DNA of 64,000 nt, taken from Mariniphaga anaerophila. GTDB lineage: Bacteria; Bacteroidota; Bacteroidia; Bacteroidales; Prolixibacteraceae. The notes beneath the pieces were generated by a model. That model did no database searches. It was not told the origin of the DNA and saw only the letters and a list, made by a program, of their open reading frames with translations. The stretch spans positions 620,001 to 684,000 of the forward strand of contig NZ_FQUM01000002.1 in the NCBI RefSeq assembly GCF_900129025.1. Direction: 5' to 3'. Below are positions 1-19,947 of this stretch, piece by piece. Position numbers and translations under genes: made by a program. Each line of letters starts with the position of its first letter. The first letter of the stretch is position 1.

Positions 1-3000
1 ATCGAAGAAAACTATCTTCATAAAATAAATAATGGCAACTCGCTGTGTAATAACAATGTGCGCTCCCTTTCTTTTGATAACGACAGCAACCTCTGGATAG
101 GAACTTTTGTGGGATTAAGCATTCTGGACAAAAACACCGGTAGTTTTTCCAATTATTACCAGGATTATACACGGCCTTATACGTTGAGTCAGAACTCGGT
201 GCGTTCACTTTACAAAGATAAAGAAGGCGGAATGTGGCTCGGAACGTTTTACGGAGGTATAAACTTCTATCATCCACACAACCTGCATTTTGATTTGATA
301 AACCAAAACGGCGGTACTTTTTCGTTGAACGACAATGTGTTGAGCTGCATTACAGAAGATGCCCAAGGAAAAGTGTGGATTGGCACCAACGACGGAGGTG
401 TTAACTGCTGGAACCGGAAGGACAACACCGTTAAATATTTTATGTTTGACGAGTCGGATCCGAATACGATCAGCTCAAACAATATAAAATCACTTGTTTT
501 TACCGACGACCAGAAGTTATTGGTGGGAACGCACAAATCGGGGTTGAATCTTTTTGATCCGGAAACCGGGAAAAATATCCGGTTTAAAGCCAGCGAAGCT
601 CCCGGAGCAATTTCCGACAACAGCGTTTACGCATTGCTGAAAGACCGCAAATCGCAAATTTGGGTAGGTGCCTGGGGCGGGTTGGAGAAGTTTAACCTCA
701 AAACAAAAACTTTCGAACTGATTAGTTCCGATTCAAAAGGGCAGCAGCTCACATCCAGCCAGATTACCTCGCTGTTTGAAGACTCGCAAAACAGAATTTG
801 GATTGGCACTTTCGAAGGATTAAATATTTTTTATCCCGAAAAGCGTCTGTTCGAATCGTTCAGAACTCATCCCGGAGACTCCACCAGTTTGAGCCACGAT
901 TTTGTAAACTGTATTTACGAAGACAGCAAAAAGAGAATCTGGATTGGAACCAATGGCGGGCTGAATATTTTTAATGAGATTGAACGAAATTTCAAAAGGA
1001 TTACCACCGAAGACGGGTTGGAAAGCAACGTGTTTTTTGGAATTCTAGAAGATGATCAAAATCGAATGTGGATTAGTACAAATCAGGGAATTATCTCTTT
1101 GGATCATCAGGGGAAATCCATGAAAAACTACTTAGTACACGACGGTATCCAGAACACGCAGTTCAACAATTTTTCATACGCAAAACTTAACGATGGCTAC
1201 TTTTTGTTTGGCGGAATAAAAGGGCTGACCATGTTTCGGCCCGATAGCATTAAAATACTTCCGTTTAACTCAAAAGTTCTTTTAACGAGTTTGAGCATCA
1301 ACAGTCAGAAAATAAACTCCGATGATGAAACAGGAATACTGGAAAATCACATTAACCAGACGAACAAAATTATTCTGAATCACGACCAGAATACAATTAC
1401 GCTGGACTATTCTGCTGTAAATTACGTAGATAACGAGAATATAACCTACCTTACTAAACTCGACAATTTTAATAAACAATGGTGGCGCTCCGATAATTCT
1501 GTTACATTTTCGCAATTGCCGCCCGGAGAGTACACCTTTAAGGTAAAAGCAGTACGCGGGGAAATTGCCGGTGCCCCAACTTCCCTGCAAATAGTTATTC
1601 TAAAACCCTGGTATCTGAGAAATTGGGCACTGGTTTTATATATTTTTCTATTGGCAGTTGCCGCTCATTTCGTTTATAAATTTGCCATGGAGCGGATGAG
1701 AACATTGCACGATTTGCGTGTTGAAAGGCTTGAAAAAGAGAAGTTAAGCGAAATTAACCAGATGAAGCTGCAGTTCTTTACCAACATTTCCCACGAGTTC
1801 AGAACTCCGCTTACCCTGATTTTGTCGCCTCTGGAAAAAATTCTCGAAAAACCGATAAACGATGAGTGGTTGCGCAAGCAGATTTTGTTAATCAACAAAA
1901 ATGCCAGCAGGCTGCTCGATTTAATCGACCAATTGCTGGAATTCAGAAAATCGGAAACCGGAAAATTGAAGCTGAACGTTTCGCGAAACGAGCTGGTTGG
2001 TTTTGTTAACGATATTTACCTCTCTTTTGCATCGGTGGCAGCGCAAAACAAAATTGTATATTCTTTCAATTCAAAAGAAGAAAAACTGGAAATCTGTTTT
2101 GACAAAAATATTATCGAACGGATATTTTTCAACTTGTTGTCCAACGCATTTAAGTTTACTCCCAACGGCGGAAAAATTGGAATCAACCTTCACAAAAACA
2201 GCAAATCTGTGGTTATCGAAGTAACAGATTCCGGAAAAGGAATTCCCAAAGATAAACTGTCGCTTATTTTCGAAAGGTACTACAGCGTAACCGAAAGCAA
2301 CGTAAATATGGGCACGGGTATTGGCCTGGCTTTAACCAAACGGTTGGTGGAGCTGCACTACGGAAGCATCAGGGTTGAAAGCGAAGAGGGGATAGGTTCC
2401 AAATTTGTGGTAACGCTGCCAATTTCGGAGAGCGTGTATTCCGAAAGCGAAATTTCCGCCATTTCGGTTGAAACGGGAAGGTATAAAAAAGCAACCGAAG
2501 TAATTTCCGACGAAAACGAAGAGGAGCCCGCAGAAATGCTGGTTGCTGACGAAAAAGACACCATTCTGATTGTGGAAGATAACGCTGATATTGTTGCCTA
2601 TTTAAAAGACAATTTCTCGGTGAACTACAATATTTGCACAGCCCCGAATGGCGAAGAGGCGCTGAAAGTTGTTGAGCAAAGCAATCCTGCACTTATTATA
2701 TCGGATGTGATGATGCCGGTTATGGACGGGATAAAATTCTGTAAAAAAATAAAGCAAAACATCAAAACAAGTCACATTCCCGTGATTTTGCTCACTGCCA
2801 AAACTTCGGTGGAAGATCAGATGGAAGGGCTGGATTCCGGCGCTGACGATTACCTTCCCAAACCGTTTTCTGTCCGGGTGCTCGAAAAGAAAGTTTTCAA
2901 CCTGATAAAAAGCAGGAAAAGGTTGCAGGATTATTACTCCAAATCAATTGATGTGAATCCGGAAGAGATTGCATTCAATTCGTTGGATCAGGAAATATTG

Positions 3001-3312
3001 GAAAAGTCGAAGGAGATAATAGAAAAGTACCTCTCCGATCCCGATTTTTCGGTAGAAATATTTGCCCGCGAAATAGGAATGAGCCGGTCGAACCTTCACT
3101 TGAAATTGAAAGCAATTACGGGCGAATCTGCAACCGATTTTATCAAAAAAATCAGGCTTGGAAAGGCTGTAAAATTGCTGGAAGAAAACAAGTACTCTAT
3201 TTCCGAAATCAGTTACATGGTAGGATACAGTTCTCCGTCGTATTTTACCACCAGTTTTAAAAAGTACTTTGGCTATCTTCCTACGGGTCACCTGGATCAG
3301 ATGCGGAAATAG
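1..3312 (+). CDS. Hybrid two-component system (HTCS) sensor/regulator, 5' truncated by window edge
   Basis: One-protein sensor and transcription regulator of a polysaccharide utilisation locus. The frame is open from base 1, before the first GTG at 58, and continues the WIGT-type propeller repeats, so the gene begins outside the window. In order: Reg_prop beta-propeller blades (to about 1250), a Y_Y_Y domain (about 1380-1600), one membrane helix (about 1615-1690), HisKA with His in ISHEFRTP (about 1792), a HATPase with the N-box LLSNAFKFTP and GTGIGLAL, a receiver domain (about 2560-2910; acceptor Asp in ISDVMMP at 2704, Lys in PKPF) and a C-terminal AraC-type HTH. All catalytic motifs look intact. 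In the family, periplasmic oligosaccharide binding drives activation of adjacent operons; the sulfatase/lyase genes downstream on the same strand are the obvious targets. The ligand is inferred to be a glycosaminoglycan fragment. Confidence 0.95.
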   Translation: MEENYLHKINNGNSLCNNNVRSLSFDNDSNLWIGTFVGLSILDKNTGSFSNYYQDYTRPYTLSQNSVRSLYKDKEGGMWLGTFYGGINFYHPHNLHFDLINQNGGTFSLNDNVLSCITEDAQGKVWIGTNDGGVNCWNRKDNTVKYFMFDESDPNTISSNNIKSLVFTDDQKLLVGTHKSGLNLFDPETGKNIRFKASEAPGAISDNSVYALLKDRKSQIWVGAWGGLEKFNLKTKTFELISSDSKGQQLTSSQITSLFEDSQNRIWIGTFEGLNIFYPEKRLFESFRTHPGDSTSLSHDFVNCIYEDSKKRIWIGTNGGLNIFNEIERNFKRITTEDGLESNVFFGILEDDQNRMWISTNQGIISLDHQGKSMKNYLVHDGIQNTQFNNFSYAKLNDGYFLFGGIKGLTMFRPDSIKILPFNSKVLLTSLSINSQKINSDDETGILENHINQTNKIILNHDQNTITLDYSAVNYVDNENITYLTKLDNFNKQWWRSDNSVTFSQLPPGEYTFKVKAVRGEIAGAPTSLQIVILKPWYLRNWALVLYIFLLAVAAHFVYKFAMERMRTLHDLRVERLEKEKLSEINQMKLQFFTNISHEFRTPLTLILSPLEKILEKPINDEWLRKQILLINKNASRLLDLIDQLLEFRKSETGKLKLNVSRNELVGFVNDIYLSFASVAAQNKIVYSFNSKEEKLEICFDKNIIERIFFNLLSNAFKFTPNGGKIGINLHKNSKSVVIEVTDSGKGIPKDKLSLIFERYYSVTESNVNMGTGIGLALTKRLVELHYGSIRVESEEGIGSKFVVTLPISESVYSESEISAISVETGRYKKATEVISDENEEEPAEMLVADEKDTILIVEDNADIVAYLKDNFSVNYNICTAPNGEEALKVVEQSNPALIISDVMMPVMDGIKFCKKIKQNIKTSHIPVILLTAKTSVEDQMEGLDSGADDYLPKPFSVRVLEKKVFNLIKSRKRLQDYYSKSIDVNPEEIAFNSLDQEILEKSKEIIEKYLSDPDFSVEIFAREIGMSRSNLHLKLKAITGESATDFIKKIRLGKAVKLLEENKYSISEISYMVGYSSPSYFTTSFKKYFGYLPTGHLDQMRK

Positions 3313-12565: not shown

Positions 12566-14551
12566 ATGAAACTGTTACTATTTATTACTTTATTATTTCC
12601 GAATGCTTTTTTTTCGGATAATCAACCCACGACAATTCAGGAAAAACCAAACATTTTGTGGCTTACGTTGGAGGACACCAGTCCTCACCAGTTTGGCTGC
12701 TATGGCAGTCCCGACGTAAAAACGCCGGAAGTTGATGCGCTTGCCGGCAAAGGAATACGCTACACCAACGCATCATCAAATGCACCGCATTGTTCGGCAG
12801 CCCGTTCAACCTTAATTACCGGTTGCTACGCCACCACCTACGGAATGGATATTCACCGCGAACAATATGAAACTCCGGAAGATATTTTTTATCCGTTGTA
12901 CCTGCGGAAGGCCGGGTATTTTTGTACCAACAACGCCAAAACTGATTACAATTCTACAATAGACGACAAAAGCCTTTGGGATGAATGCAGTCACGAGGCT
13001 TCGTACAACAGTCCTGCTCGCAAGCCCGGACAGCCGTTTTTCGCAATTTTTAATACAACGGCCACGCACATGGGGCTGGTGCGCACCATAACCACCGAAG
13101 GACGCCCCGATTTTAAGAAATTTGGAATCGATGAAAATAAAATATTCCTGCCGCCTCATGTTCCCGATTTACCGGAAATGCGGTCGGATGAAGCGTATGA
13201 GCTGAAAGCCAGTCAGGAATCCAGTCAATGGGCACAGGTTTTTTTAGATGATTTGGAAAAGAGAGGATTGGCTGAAAATACCATCGTGTTTTTTTATAGC
13301 GACCACGGAGGATGCCTGCCCCGGGGAAAAGGATTCCCATACGAAAGCGGGTTGCGTGTGCCTCTGATTATTTATGTGCCCCCGGCCTGGCAGGAAAAGC
13401 TGGGTGTTGAATCGGGAATTGTAGATCCGCGGCTGGTAAGTTTTGTCGATTTTGCACCAACCATTTTGAGCCTCGCCGGCGTAGAACCACCTGATTTTAT
13501 GCAGGGAAAAGCTTTCATGGGAAAATATGCCGAGGCTCCTCGTAAACTACAGTTCGGGTTCAGGGCGAATCAGGAAAACTATCATTACGATCCTTGCCGG
13601 ACTGTTACCGACGGGCGTTACAAATACATTCGAAACTACATTCCACATAAGCCGTTTTGCCTGCGGAATCTTTATCAGTGGGGAATGCCTGCAAATCTGG
13701 CGTGGGACGAATACGTTATGTCGGGCAAATGTACCCGCCCCGAGTGGCTGCAACCGTTTCAGCCAAAATCTGCGGAAATGCTTTTTGATTTGGAAAATGA
13801 TCCCTGGGAGCTGAACAACCTGGCCGGAGATTCGGAATACAATAACGAACTACAGTTTTTCAGAAAAGAAACAGCAAAACATATTCGCGAAAGTAACGAC
13901 CTGGGATTGTTTGTGAGGGGACTGCGGAAAAAGCCGGGTGGTTTGTATCGCTGGGTGAAAGAAGAAAATTTTCCGCTTGAAAAGTTGTATGAGGCAGCCG
14001 AACTTGCCAGTTCGCCCACTGCCGCCGATACCGAAAAATTGGTGGAATTGCTTCAAAGTCCGTATCCGGAATTTCGCTACTGGGGAGCCATTGGTTTTTG
14101 CACGTTGGGCTCACAAAAACAGACGGGTGAGTGCCCCGAAGAACTGATTCAGGCTGCCAACGACAAAACCAAAGAGGTTGCTACCGCTGCTGCCGAGGCG
14201 CTTTGCTATCTCGGTGAGTTCGATAAAGGCGTGAAAAAACTGATTCACTTGTTTGAAAATAATTTTAACCTGGCGTACTCTTCGTTGGAAACTTTAACCT
14301 GGTATCCGGAGCAAAGGCAAATGATGATGAAGTACCTGCCTGAGTTTATATCGATGAATAAAAAGCAGGAACAAATAGTTCAGGACAGAATGGGGCTGGG
14401 CGTTAAAGTGCGTTCCATTTTGGTGAATTTGGGCGAATTGCCGCTGTCTGAACTTTATACCGAGGAGGATCGCGAAAAAGGCATCGAAGCCAATAAAAAA
14501 GGGCGTACGTTTGTTTATCCTCCTGATATTCAACCTTCAGTTCACCAATAA
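12566..14551 (+). CDS. S1-type sulfatase with C-terminal HEAT-like extension (CSAAR active site)
   Basis: 661 aa, about 150 longer than the other sulfatases here. Weak signal peptide (1-17). Metal-binding LWLTLEDTSPHQFGCYG; active-site motif C76-S-A-A-R80 in APHCSAARSTLITG; second block FFYSDHGGCLPRGKGFPYESG; C-terminal DLENDPWELNNLAG. From about residue 480 the protein has repeating helices (SSPTAADTEKLVELLQSPYPEFRYWGA, then AANDKTKEVATAAAEALCYLGEF) typical of HEAT-like repeats, ending in a charged tail. The fold suits a heparan N-sulfatase/SGSH-like enzyme; the extension may bind a partner or the polymer (inference). Confidence 0.88.
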   Translation: MKLLLFITLLFPNAFFSDNQPTTIQEKPNILWLTLEDTSPHQFGCYGSPDVKTPEVDALAGKGIRYTNASSNAPHCSAARSTLITGCYATTYGMDIHREQYETPEDIFYPLYLRKAGYFCTNNAKTDYNSTIDDKSLWDECSHEASYNSPARKPGQPFFAIFNTTATHMGLVRTITTEGRPDFKKFGIDENKIFLPPHVPDLPEMRSDEAYELKASQESSQWAQVFLDDLEKRGLAENTIVFFYSDHGGCLPRGKGFPYESGLRVPLIIYVPPAWQEKLGVESGIVDPRLVSFVDFAPTILSLAGVEPPDFMQGKAFMGKYAEAPRKLQFGFRANQENYHYDPCRTVTDGRYKYIRNYIPHKPFCLRNLYQWGMPANLAWDEYVMSGKCTRPEWLQPFQPKSAEMLFDLENDPWELNNLAGDSEYNNELQFFRKETAKHIRESNDLGLFVRGLRKKPGGLYRWVKEENFPLEKLYEAAELASSPTAADTEKLVELLQSPYPEFRYWGAIGFCTLGSQKQTGECPEELIQAANDKTKEVATAAAEALCYLGEFDKGVKKLIHLFENNFNLAYSSLETLTWYPEQRQMMMKYLPEFISMNKKQEQIVQDRMGLGVKVRSILVNLGELPLSELYTEEDREKGIEANKKGRTFVYPPDIQPSVHQ

Positions 14552-14562
14552 AAACACAAACA

Positions 14563-17391
14563 ATGTTGCAATTAATTAACAGAAAAGAGATTACCCGGAT
14601 GATGAACAGAAAGTTTTTGTTGGTGCTTCTGTTTTTATTTACAGGAATTTGTGGCTTTGCACAAAATAAATGGCAGGATGCACTGGGAGTGGTTCACACC
14701 GCTCTTCCCAAAACGCAGTTGCTGAGTGCTGCGGATAGTTATTTTGAAGTGGAAGAATCGGCTCAACCGGGCGACGAAGTTATCGGAAGGGTAAATCTGG
14801 CGAACAATTCGTTCGAAAAAGCCGATTTTGAAATAACCGGAGGAACCGGTGCGAGTTTGTTTCGAATTGAAAAATTTGTGAACTCCCGCGGAAAACACTT
14901 TGGTATTCTGACAGTAAATCAACTGCCGCTTAGTAGCGACAAATACACGCTGCAGGTAAAAGCAACTTTTAATAACGGTGCAACCGATACGCAGGAATAT
15001 ACAATAACAAAGGTAGAAACATCTCTTGCCGAGAAGTACTTTGAGTTTGTTTATGACAGGATATCCCGGGCGCGCCGGTTGTATTATCCTGAAAAAGATG
15101 CCAAGCTGGAAGAGTTCCTCTCCAAGTTTAATGCTGATGGTTCTTTTTCGGATTTAACCTACGGTTTGTCGAAGGCAGGCTGGGAAGGCGCTAATGTTGG
15201 TGCTTTGCGAATCAACAACCTGGCAATGGCCTATCTCGACGAGAAATCGTCGTTTTACAAAGATGAAGCATTGAAGGAAAAGGTTTATACCGCGATTATT
15301 TTTAATGCTAACGAGTTTGCAAAATACCGGACCGAGTGGTATGAAACACACCTGTGGCGAAATACCGATTACATTGCCGGAATTGGTCTCAACTATTTCA
15401 GAATACTTCAGCAAGAGATGAAAAGCCAGGACGCTGAAGTTGCGCAACGGGCTGTTGAAGTTTATGATGCGATTATTGATAATTGCGACAATTTGTTTGC
15501 CGAACGCATGGACGAACGGCCTGCTATTGGAAATGCAAACCGCAACCACCGGATGCGGAGCCTGGCCGTAAGGGCTGCAATTTCGTACGATTACAACCGG
15601 GCGCTTACCGACTGGGATTTGTGGTACGACAAGGAAGATGTCCGTATCCCGGGATTTTACCCGACAGGTGCATTGGACGATTTAATGGAACTGGTTGAAA
15701 CAGGTTTTGTTATTTCAGATACCTACAACAACAAAAACGGGTTTTTCCCCGACGGAACCATTTGTCATCATCCGGCTGTGGGAATCCAGTTTACTGCCGA
15801 CGCCTATGGTTGGGAATGGCTTACCGAGTGGAGTATTCCTCTGGCCGATCAGTTTAAAAATACTCCTTTTCAGGCGCAGGATAAAACCTACAATACCATT
15901 GCCGAACGAATTCTGGATGCTTACCGCCCGTTAACCTTTTACGGGTATCTCGACATGTCGGTTGGCGGCTTGGAGCCCGACCGTGCAAAATGGGGAAGCC
16001 GACTGCTTTCTGCTGTTAAAAGATTGATTGAGGCAAAGAGTGATGAAACGGTTATTGCGCGCGAAAATGAACTGCTCGATTATAAAACCAATCTGGAAAA
16101 AGAAGGGTATGATGACCCGTTGGCAATGAGCAAAGCATTCTGGAATATCGATTACTTTGTGCAGCGCCGGCCCGATTATTTTGCCTCTGCAAAAATGATT
16201 TCGAAACGTTCCAGAGGATTGGAACGGGGAATTGAAAAACGGTCGTATTACTATTTGGGTGACGGCGCACTGTTCGTGAGGGTGAATCCCGACGATTACA
16301 ACAATATTCAGAATTATTACAACTGGCATGCAATTCCCGGAACCTCTGCCGAGCAGCGGACTGACGACTTGCCTCCTTCGGCGGTGTCGGCTTATCCCGG
16401 AGCACCCGGAACCAATGTTTTTGCCGGGGTTGTGTCCAACGGCTCAGTCGGGTTTGGCGCATTCCGGTACGAGCGCAATCACCAGAGCGAAGCGGCTTTG
16501 TATTCAACGGTAAATGCCAATAAAGGCTATTTCTTTTTTGAGAACGAAATTGTTGCTCTTGGAAACAACGTGAGGCGCGTACGCCCGGGCGACGGAGCTG
16601 ATATTCTGACTACCCTGAACCAGTTGGAATGGAAAGGCGATATAGTTTTTGGAAGGGCAGGAGAGGATCATGCTGAAACGGTTTCTTTTTCTGATGAAAA
16701 TAGCGTTGAACATTTTGCTGTGGAGCAGCGCCCGCTTTGGGTTTATCACGACAGGGTTGGCTACGTAATAGTTCCCGGGGAAGGGCAAAAAGTTAATGTT
16801 GAGCTGGCTGCCGAAACACGGGCTCCCCGCTGGACAAATGCAACTGCCCCAAAGAAAATGTTTCAGCTGGCGATAAACCACGGCCCGAAAGTGACCGACG
16901 ATTCGTACCAGTACATTGTGTTGCCGGCCACGAGTGTCGAGAAAGTCAAGGCCTTTGCCCAATCCATAGAAACAGGCAACATTAAAGTATTGAAAAATGA
17001 ACCTGAACTGATGGCGGTGTACAATAAGGAGTTGCAAATTGTTGAAGCAGCTTTTTACGAGCCGGGAACGCTTCTTTTTGAAAACTCAGAAGGAGAAAAT
17101 GTTTGTCTTGCAGTTGACCGTCCCGCTTTGGTAATGATGAAAGACAATGGAAAGAATCTGGAGATTTCTGTTACAGATCCGTGCCATTCAACCACAGCGT
17201 TAACCATCAATTTAGATGTAAACATAAAATTTAAAGGTGAAGCTTTTGATGAAACCAGCAGCCTGACTAGTGTTGCAGTTACTCATTCTTCGGAAGAAGT
17301 TTACGCCGGAAAACCGGTTGTGCAACTTTTCGAAACAGAAGGGCGGTTTTTAGCTGACGTTCAACCAGGTAATATTCAAAAAAAAAAGTAA
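14563..17391 (+). CDS. PL8-type polysaccharide lyase (hyaluronate/chondroitin lyase superfamily), C-terminus frameshifted
   Basis: 942-aa exported lyase that cleaves uronic-acid polysaccharides by beta-elimination. The signal peptide is best read from the Met pair at 14599/14602 (MNRKFLLVLLFLFTGICGFA). A cadherin-like beta domain covers about residues 55-145; an alpha-toroid follows with LWRNTDYIAGIGLNY and the catalytic-histidine region DGTICHHPAVG; then the beta-sandwich with NYYNWHAIPGTSAEQ, a signature of PL8-like enzymes (IPGTT type). It ends at a 10-A tract (17378-17387) right before a stop. An intact T9SS sorting domain continues in the -1 frame, so the natural product is probably longer. 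The substrate (chondroitin/dermatan or hyaluronan) is not fixed by sequence. Confidence 0.82.
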   Translation: MLQLINRKEITRMMNRKFLLVLLFLFTGICGFAQNKWQDALGVVHTALPKTQLLSAADSYFEVEESAQPGDEVIGRVNLANNSFEKADFEITGGTGASLFRIEKFVNSRGKHFGILTVNQLPLSSDKYTLQVKATFNNGATDTQEYTITKVETSLAEKYFEFVYDRISRARRLYYPEKDAKLEEFLSKFNADGSFSDLTYGLSKAGWEGANVGALRINNLAMAYLDEKSSFYKDEALKEKVYTAIIFNANEFAKYRTEWYETHLWRNTDYIAGIGLNYFRILQQEMKSQDAEVAQRAVEVYDAIIDNCDNLFAERMDERPAIGNANRNHRMRSLAVRAAISYDYNRALTDWDLWYDKEDVRIPGFYPTGALDDLMELVETGFVISDTYNNKNGFFPDGTICHHPAVGIQFTADAYGWEWLTEWSIPLADQFKNTPFQAQDKTYNTIAERILDAYRPLTFYGYLDMSVGGLEPDRAKWGSRLLSAVKRLIEAKSDETVIARENELLDYKTNLEKEGYDDPLAMSKAFWNIDYFVQRRPDYFASAKMISKRSRGLERGIEKRSYYYLGDGALFVRVNPDDYNNIQNYYNWHAIPGTSAEQRTDDLPPSAVSAYPGAPGTNVFAGVVSNGSVGFGAFRYERNHQSEAALYSTVNANKGYFFFENEIVALGNNVRRVRPGDGADILTTLNQLEWKGDIVFGRAGEDHAETVSFSDENSVEHFAVEQRPLWVYHDRVGYVIVPGEGQKVNVELAAETRAPRWTNATAPKKMFQLAINHGPKVTDDSYQYIVLPATSVEKVKAFAQSIETGNIKVLKNEPELMAVYNKELQIVEAAFYEPGTLLFENSEGENVCLAVDRPALVMMKDNGKNLEISVTDPCHSTTALTINLDVNIKFKGEAFDETSSLTSVAVTHSSEEVYAGKPVVQLFETEGRFLADVQPGNIQKKK

Positions 17392-17636
17392 GAGTGTATT
17401 TCAATAGCGCCAGCAAAAAAATCCGGCTCAATGCCGAAATCTCCGACGGAACAATGGATGTTTCGTTGTACAGTTTTGCGGGGCAGTTGTTGGAGAAAAA
17501 ACGAATTTTTGGAGGTGGCGGCGTGGTAGATTCTGTAGATGTATTTTCCACCCGCGGACTGGTTCCCGGAATGTACATGGTAAAAGTAGAAACAGAGGAC
17601 GCTGTTCAAAGCGATAAAATACTTGTTCATAATTAA
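17373..17636 (+). CDS. T9SS type A C-terminal sorting domain, out of frame with the upstream PL8-type lyase
   Basis: The frame runs from just after a stop at 17370-17372 to a stop at 17634-17636. After the A-tract it reads [17 protein letters not shown], then [35 protein letters not shown] and DKILVHN: the complete pattern of a type A sorting domain (SKKI, hydrophobic strand with G-L, G-Y-V-K and a K-I-L end). It has no start codon of its own in a suitable place and no signal peptide, so it makes sense only as the C-terminus of the lyase. One extra A (11 instead of 10) or a -1 slip would join them. It could be real slippage, a mutation, or a homopolymer sequencing error. Confidence 0.8.
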
Positions 17637-17646
17637 ATACAATAAA

Positions 17647-19947
17647 ATGAGACGAATAATTTGTGGAATGTTTTTTCTGTTTGCCCTGAATGTATTTGCT
17701 TTTTCGCAGGTGACAAAATGCGAATGGAAAAGCGTTAACGGCGTTGAAATTCCTATTCCGCCTAAAGAGCATCCCCGCCTATACATAAGAGCACACCAAA
17801 TACCAGAACTAAAAATGCGGTTGGAAAATCCGGCATTGAAAGATGCGTGGAATACACTGCTTGAAATGCAGGAAGACTGGAAACCCGAAGATATTCCCGA
17901 GGAAAAAGGCTGGCGTTTTTACGTGCAGCAAAAAGGGATTACCGTGCGTGCCGAACTCAATGCGCTGAAGTACCTGGTTACAAAAGATGAAAAGCTGGGG
18001 CGCGAAGCGATAAATTTGGTTATCGATACGCTGGAAACAGCTTCGTGGCCACACACCGGCGATATATCGCGGGCTGTGGGCCGGATGATGGTGTCTGGCG
18101 CTATTGTGTACGATTGGTGCTACGATTTGTTGACCGATGCAGAGAAACAACGTTTTGTAAAAGCACAGGTCCGGCTGGCAAAAATGATGGAATGCGGGTA
18201 CCCTCCCGTGAAACAAAATTCGGTAACTGGACACTCGTCGGAATGGATGATTATGCGTGATATGATTTCGGCCGGGGTTGCCATTTACGATGAATTCCCG
18301 GAAATGTACAACCTGGCTGCGGGCAGATTTTTTAAAGAACATTTGCCAGTGCGGAACTGGTTTTATCCGGGGCATGCTTACCATCAGGGAACATCGTATT
18401 TTAACGTTCGTTTTTCGTGCGACCTGTTTGCGCTTTGGATTTTCGACCGGATGGGCGCAGGAAATGTGTACAACCCGGCGCAGCAGTTCGTGGCGTACGA
18501 TCTTATTTACAAACGCCGCCCCGACGGGCAGATTATGCCGAGCGGAGATGTAAATCATACCCGGGCATCTGCAAAATATTACAGTCTTCCCATGATGCTG
18601 GCTTCCAGCTACTACAAAGATGAATACCTGAATTACGAGTATCAAATGAATCCGAATATTGACAGCAATAACATTTTGTACGATTTGCTTTGGCGCGACA
18701 CCGAGCTGGGAACCAAGAGTCCGGACGACCTGCCTTTGACTAAATATTCGGGGTCGCCATTTGGATGGATGATTGCACGCACGGGCTGGGATGCAAACAG
18801 TGTGATTGCCGAGATGAAAATAAATGAGTACAATTTTCTCAATCACATGCATCACGATGCCGGCGCTTTTCAGATTTATTACAAAGGGCCGCTGGCTATC
18901 GATGCCGGTACTTATCAGGGCTCATCCGGCGGTTATAACAGCCCGCATAACAAAAACTTCTTTAAAAGAACAATTGCCCACAACAGTTTGCTGATTTTCG
19001 ATCCGGACGAAAAATTCCACTCCATTGGTTATGGTGGAGCTGATAAATCAGAATATGTGGAAAACGACGGTGGACAGCGTTTGCCCGGGTACGGCTGGTT
19101 TCCGCCGCAAAATCTGGATTCGTTGCTTGCGCAGGATTATGAAACCGGGAAAATACTTGCCCACGGTTTTGGCCCTGATTTTCAGATGCCCGATTACTCG
19201 TATCTGAAGGGCGACATCACCAAAGCATATTCGGAGAAAGTAAATGAGGTAAAACGTTCATTCGTTTTTCTGAATCTGAAAGAGGAAAAAATACCGGCAG
19301 CATTTGTTGTTTTCGATAAAGTGGTGGCATCTAATCCGGAGTTTCAGAAATACTGGCTGTTGCACAGTATTGAAGAGCCTGAAATTGAAGGGAACAGGAT
19401 AACCATAAAACGAACCAAAAACGGCGACACCGGAATGTTGGTCAATACAGCGCTGCTTCCGGCTGCTGATGATTGTGATATTGTTCCGGTGGGAGGAAAA
19501 GGAAAAGAGTTTTGGGTGTTTGGCACCAATTACGAAAACGAATCGACCCGGACCGCCGACGAAGCCAACGAACGCGGAGCCTGGCGGGTAGAGATTTTGC
19601 CGAAAAAACCTGCTGCTGAAGATCTCTTTCTGAATGTGATGCAGGTAACCGAAACCGGGCAGAACAACCTGCATGATGTGAAGAGTATTGAAAACGAAAA
19701 AATAGTTGGTGCGCAACTGGCTAACCGGGTTGTAACATTCAGCAAAACCGGGCAGATTATTGACCGTCCGTTTGAGCTGGAGGTAACCGGCAACGGAACG
19801 TTTAAATTTGTATTGACTGACCTGGATGCCGGAACCTGGCAGGTGAAAAGAAACGGAGAAGTTTATTTGCCCGGAATTCCGGTTTGCTCTGACGACGGAG
19901 TGATGTATTTCGAAGGCGAAGCGGGAGACTACAAATTTCTTCGGTAA
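17647..19947 (+). CDS. Heparinase II-like lyase (PL21)
   Basis: 766-aa secreted lyase acting on heparan/heparin-type chains by beta-elimination. Start set at ATG 17647 ([21 protein letters not shown] is a signal peptide); an upstream Met at 17623 would overlap the preceding frame. The N-terminal alpha-toroid has [12 protein letters not shown] and [11 protein letters not shown], matching the catalytic His and Tyr regions of Pedobacter heparinus heparinase II; the central [15 protein letters not shown] and [16 protein letters not shown] carry the zinc-binding and heparinase II/III signatures. Length is close to that enzyme's roughly 770 aa. Lying beside GH88 and four sulfatases, it strongly supports heparan sulfate as a target of the locus. 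Confidence 0.9.

Follow-up and report, generated by a model that had tools for sequence, protein, structure and literature searches.

A candidate transcriptional slippage site between a PL8-family lyase and a type IX sorting domain in Mariniphaga

In Thermus, the dnaX gene carries a run of nine A's and is described as a case of poly-A programmed transcriptional realignment (PMC1088944). Nine dnaX genes that consist of two open reading frames (ORFs) with ten A's have likewise been read as cases of transcriptional slippage in PMC3711429, where a change in the direction of the shift among homologs was used to infer this mechanism. For tssM, whose run has eleven A's, mass spectrometry of cDNA showed between 10 and 15 A's in the mRNA (PMC4256274). 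Here we describe a polysaccharide lyase gene of Mariniphaga anaerophila that resembles the two-ORF dnaX genes described in PMC3711429: its junction has ten A's, and the long form requires a -1 shift. Judging from sequence comparisons, programmed transcriptional slippage at this run probably makes two lyases, one untagged and exported by Sec, the other tagged for the type IX secretion system (T9SS).

A PL8 lyase frame that ends at ten A's

The window, the 64,000-nucleotide stretch of DNA analysed here, is part of contig C29 of the 5.05-Mb M. anaerophila genome. It contains a 942-amino-acid ORF (14563..17391, + strand) that the first-pass annotation had called a PL8-type lyase. That call holds: Lyase_8 (E=3.8e-49), Lyase_8_C (6e-13) and Lyase_8_N (1.5e-7) all match above their Pfam cut-offs, which places the protein in the PL8 family. 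Its best NCBIfam model is chondroitinase AC, at a score far below the cut-off (195 vs 1000 bits); chondroitin sulfate and hyaluronan are candidate PL8 substrates. Its N-terminus is, by eye, a hydrophobic, signal-peptide-like stretch. A sulfatase gene lies upstream (12566..14551, +) and a heparinase II/III-like gene downstream (17647..19947, +); by eye, similar genes flank the ortholog in Mariniphaga sediminis. With further sulfatases, a GH88-like gene and a 3-keto-disaccharide-hydrolase-like gene nearby, the region is probably a polysaccharide-use cluster. A hybrid two-component regulator (Reg_prop, HisKA, Response_reg, HTH_18) is found at window positions 58-3312, at the left end of the cluster.

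As the annotation had noted, the lyase frame enters ten A's and then stops. The run, our proposed slippage site, occupies 17378..17387 (+), and the 0-frame TAA, one base behind it, lies at 17389..17391 (+); the frame closes with CAA AAA AAA AAG TAA and the protein with N I Q K K K. The frame transition thus has the homopolymer of about nine or more A or T residues that is looked for in PTR. In the -1 frame, 87 codons are open at 17373..17636 (+), and the part that follows the A-run (17388-17636, +), hereafter the tail, holds a T9SS type A sorting domain; 11 A's in the RNA would join the two frames. The heparinase II/III-like gene has its ATG 10 nt past the sorting-domain stop.

The sorting-domain assignment made in the first pass is borne out by the profile search, in which TIGR04183 (cut-off 23 bits) matches the tail with 31 bits (E=1.8e-7; positions 12-71 of the 72 in the profile). 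Support for this identity is nevertheless uneven. The same tail scores 21 bits against Pfam PF18962, below the cut-off of 27, and the M. sediminis tail is below cut-off in both libraries (18.7 bits against the 23 of TIGR04183). The sorting-domain family is still the best match of both tails in both libraries. Both tails are predicted to be seven-strand beta proteins, with pLDDT values of 84.1 (window) and 85.3 (M. sediminis). In a fold search with the window model, nothing reached E<=0.001, and its best 50 matches include no T9SS entry. With the M. sediminis model, two DUF3244 proteins alone reached E<=0.001 among the matches listed; T9SS structures ranked 8, 10, 31 and 45 in that list, none at E<=0.001, and included 8glk_D (NucA complex, E 0.004), 8qb1_A (mirolase CTD, E 0.005) and 5m11 (PorZ, E 0.033).

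M. anaerophila itself likely has a T9SS, to judge from a SprA match above cut-off (2747.6 bits) and 56 genomic matches to the sorting domain (E up to 0.01). Among these 56, the lyase tail is the only one in a frame shorter than 110 amino acids. The next shortest frame, of 115 amino acids, holds a match starting at base 115 of its contig; those after it have 139 and 149 amino acids, and the stretches around these two contain no A-run longer than 8. No other gene of the window has a sorting-domain match at E up to 0.01.

The statement that the domain has no start codon of its own proved inexact. There is a GTG at 17394 (an ORF of 80 amino acids), and M. sediminis has an ATG that overlaps the lyase stop as TAATG. 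The presence of start codons in both species would allow translation to restart and yield a separate tail peptide. Such a product would have neither signal peptide nor cargo, and a peptide of that kind could not be a T9SS substrate, so that we give restart almost no credence.

Conservation of the junction and selection on the tail

The sole ortholog found is in M. sediminis SY21, whose lyase is 76% identical. Its lyase frame ends GTC AAA AAA AAA AGA TAA, again with ten A's; the TAA falls in the same alignment column as that of M. anaerophila, and a sorting domain likewise follows in the -1 frame. In the ungapped alignment, the M. sediminis run both starts and ends one column earlier with its length unchanged, which means that bases have changed on both flanks. 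The first two tail residues differ between the species (V R vs I M), the out-of-frame TAA is identical, and the tails as a whole are 49% identical. The site and its frame transition, which PTR would be expected to conserve, are therefore kept in the one ortholog found. The first-pass annotation had proposed looking for the A-tract in relatives and had held that relatives with the same stop and no sorting domain would speak against its reading; the M. sediminis gene has the tract, the stop and the domain.

One point against the slippage reading is that the gene is known in two genomes only. It is present in two of the four genomes of the genus (one of the three besides M. anaerophila), and we found no other full-length close match in 140 family genomes (E<=1e-60) and, with E<=1e-55, none among 393 sampled order genomes, which yielded one weaker homolog, 31% identical. 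Two seven-residue patterns retrieved only the M. sediminis gene from the genome_contigs collection, a search that may have left out records near the M. anaerophila genome itself.

Comparison of the two tails points to constraint at the protein level. Synonymous changes are in excess (pS 0.64, pN 0.33), with a Fisher p=1e-4 obtained from rounded counts. The encoded residue is the same at 38 of 79 aligned codons, and there are 3 to 8 stops per sequence in the two alternative frames. The tails differ at 94 of 237 aligned bases, as against 432 of 624 at lyase synonymous sites (p=4e-15). The lyase is the more constrained part, with an omega of 0.08 vs about 0.31 for the tail. These comparisons indicate purifying selection on the sorting domain as read in the -1 frame, the protein-level selection on a downstream frame that PTR entails. 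Because of the synonymous excess and of conservation beyond that of lyase synonymous sites, the tail looks translated and useful, and the 0 frame alone cannot explain the constraint.

The same data bear on whether secretion has been lost, with the stop fixed and the downstream domain a decaying remnant. PL8 lyases commonly do without the domain: by eye, 23 of 28 homolog tails end with none, and five (L015, L017, L018, L027 and L028) have it in frame, so both forms exist as separate genes. (These 28 loci exclude 13 further matches without a locus and the fragment L029.) No sorting domain was seen at the ends of the PL8 paralogs L020, L021 and L030. A decaying remnant, however, should not differ so little when synonymous sites are near saturation, nor have fewer of its changes at nonsynonymous sites. 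The tail frame is open in both species, whereas random change left the window tail open in only 424 of 20,000 simulations at 69% divergence and in 1,057 of 20,000 at 40%. We therefore regard loss of secretion as extremely unlikely.

Long A-runs in the genus and in dnaX and coaBC

The A-run by itself is not above chance. The window has five matches to nine A's on either strand, two of them inside the lyase run, compared to a mean of 18 in shuffled sequences; what exceeds chance is the change of frame with a conserved domain behind it. Nor is a run of ten A's by itself a marker of recoding, as other genes hold one in frame (L072 and L086 in M. anaerophila; L077, L118 and L119 in M. sediminis).

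We surveyed runs of at least 10 A or T residues, retaining frame transitions with at least 100 codons before and 50 after. All 30 such runs in M. anaerophila were examined, and three lie at a frame transition: those of the lyase, dnaX and coaBC. All three transitions recur in M. sediminis, where 31 of 33 runs were examined; the two left out, on C12, are apparent duplicates of two on C4. Loci L114 and L136 did not enter the analysis. Homopolymers are prone to sequencing error and the sequences were seen as assemblies only, so that the DNA might in fact have eleven A's and encode one continuous secreted lyase. The ten-A break, however, stands in the assemblies of two species, and the fact that by this filter only three of 30 long runs break a frame in M. 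anaerophila, with the same three genes broken in M. sediminis, argues that miscalling is not general. A read or assembly error at the lyase is in our judgment very unlikely.

The M. sediminis survey also turned up a T10 frame transition (L079 and L081, which are a single run; G003:C4:40426-40435, minus strand) in what looks, by eye, like a membrane-anchored AraC-like regulator; it was not counted as a slippage gene. In the two other genomes of the genus, 100 runs were listed, of which the 99 distinct ones were examined, and a slightly looser filter flagged six transitions, among them dnaX in both genomes and coaBC in one. The remaining three were not counted as slippage genes. In L163 the upstream frame looks spurious. 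L202 (G001:C254) has eleven A's between parts that by eye are AraC-like and TPR-like, and L230 (G002:C64) has ten between two frames that by eye are phage-like; slippage, decay or error could account for either.

The M. anaerophila dnaX gene (L102, G000:C32:35952-38961) encodes 367 amino acids in its short frame and about 200 more after it, and belongs to the two-ORF poly-A type described in PMC3711429. We surveyed 22 family genomes, including that of M. anaerophila, one of which had no match. All 21 genes read require a -1 shift, with ten A's in 17 and eleven in four. In nine genomes of other families, ten A's accompany the shift in two, A10-A13 is in frame in four, and the remaining three show no run longer than seven (three further matching genomes without a locus are not in these counts).

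These runs bear on phase variation, in which slipped-strand replication would toggle the DNA run between ten and eleven A's and a clone would switch between untagged and tagged lyase. Poly-A/T tracts make DNA polymerase slip as well, and phase-variable proteins are mostly ones exposed to the environment (both points from PMC3711429). Both lyase assemblies, on the other hand, have ten A's, and the A10 or A11 of dnaX is out of frame in every one of the 21 family genes read.

A replication gene is unlikely to be under a switch that abolishes its long form, so such runs seem to be stable and bypassed at expression. For the lyase, phase variation is accordingly an improbable explanation.

The coaBC locus (L074 in M. 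anaerophila, G000:C22:15414-18423, minus strand; also L131 and L264-L293) shows a different pattern. Between the CoaC and CoaB parts, 18 of the 21 family genomes read have nine to eleven A's: in 11 of these the frame shifts by -1, in one by +1, and in six the two parts are in frame. The remaining three lack a long run there, yet the gene of one of them (G017) is split nonetheless. Outside the family, nine loci were read. Two combine A11 or A13 with a -1 shift and one keeps ten A's in frame; in the other six, no run at the junction exceeds nine, and the frame of one of these six (G049) is short. Retention of the run in all three frame relations is as expected under slippage of RNA polymerase, because either arrangement would give a short and a long protein, here CoaC alone and CoaBC. 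No description of coaBC slippage was found among the papers listed in searches of the main texts of open-licence PMC papers. The searched part of PMC5009743 mentions neither coaBC nor type IX, and in the text available from PMC4389277, coaBC appears only as one gene and slippage is discussed in general terms.

Programmed -1 ribosomal frameshifting on the lysine codons would give the same two lyase products at a different step. In M. anaerophila, the heptamer A AAA AAG stands directly before the TAA, in the 0 frame and of the slippery X XXY YYZ form; it is the heptamer proved in Escherichia coli dnaX (PMC3711429), and the shift is -1 in both species. This heptamer, however, has only six A's before its last base, whereas ten A's are kept at the junction despite the one-column displacement. 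M. sediminis moreover has a different heptamer of the slippery form in the 0 frame, A AAA AAA, before AGA TAA. No consistent stimulatory RNA stem was found in four pseudoknot-free folds of the downstream sequence (z of -1.00, -1.59, +1.00 and +1.94). Frameshifting would also leave unexplained why the coaBC run is kept both in and out of frame. We therefore favour transcriptional slippage and consider ribosomal frameshifting unlikely.

Whether the device extends beyond single genes is an evenly balanced question: a run of about ten A's could be a general means of expression in the family, serving dnaX, coaBC and, in Mariniphaga, export, where slippage would set the T9SS-tagged share of the lyase and so the proportion outside vs in the periplasm.

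Two predicted lyases and their known counterparts

The first-pass annotation had raised the possibility that the gene is recoded to give two products, against a real loss of secretion or a homopolymer error. Recoding is favoured over a loss or a lone read error by the same ten A's, stop and domain in a second species, by purifying selection on the tail and by the dnaX and coaBC genes. Under transcriptional slippage, RNA polymerase would mostly copy ten A's, and the lyase would stop at the TAA after KKK, with no sorting domain. In some transcripts one A would be gained (or two lost), so that translation would continue through the sorting domain. The cell thus probably makes the enzyme both with and without the tag. 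By eye, the N-terminus resembles a signal peptide, so that export across the inner membrane is expected for both forms; the untagged one, exported by Sec, would be expected in the periplasm, and the T9SS should take up the tagged one only, carrying it to the cell surface or medium. T9SS cargo usually sheds its tail on maturation. Since the sorting-domain matches of the window are confined to this gene, the lyase without the tag may work alongside its partner enzymes, with the tagged form attacking polymer outside. We infer slippage at the lyase, its rate, the two products and their locations from the features of the gene and its ortholog.

The mechanism is already known; its use for attaching a T9SS tag was not found among the papers listed in searches of open-licence PMC main texts, and none of the closest hits describes slippage of a T9SS sorting domain. 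In the text available from PMC7712824, one T9SS protein gene is frameshifted in one strain, with no mechanism given, and in that from PMC12239597 "slippage" refers to motor movement. If the proposed reading is true, annotation that calls such genes truncated, or that seeks T9SS cargo by in-frame tails only, can miss real products. M. sediminis, a named species, lends itself to a test of this reading.

Several described systems share parts of this arrangement. In tssM1 of Citrobacter rodentium, as in the lyase gene, a poly-A run precedes a stop, and an extra A in the RNA restores a C-terminal domain, giving two lengths of protein; tssM is, however, a part of the type VI machine, whereas here the protein is a cargo enzyme of the T9SS and the added part is a sorting tag (PMC4256274). 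The Shigella type III genes spa13 and mxiE are similar in that slippage joins two frames in genes related to secretion, and differ in being genes for a secretion system or its regulation, while the lyase case concerns the sorting signal of an exported enzyme (PMC5009743, PMC1088944). In Blochmannia, frames broken by homopolymers are also treated as working genes, with polymerase slippage thought to be corrective; there the outcome is correction to a full-length protein and not two useful products (PMC4389277). Related PL8 lyases each appear to have one fixed form, whereas the present gene appears to encode both; if this is so, it would show how the two sides of the outer membrane can be served from one gene. 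The difference from the dnaX genes in PMC3711429 is one of place. DnaX is a replication protein, whereas the lyase would gain a secretion signal and its forms would differ in where they go, so that transcriptional slippage, if it operates as proposed, sets the location of an enzyme and not only its length, with a ten-base run dividing the lyase between periplasm and cell surface.
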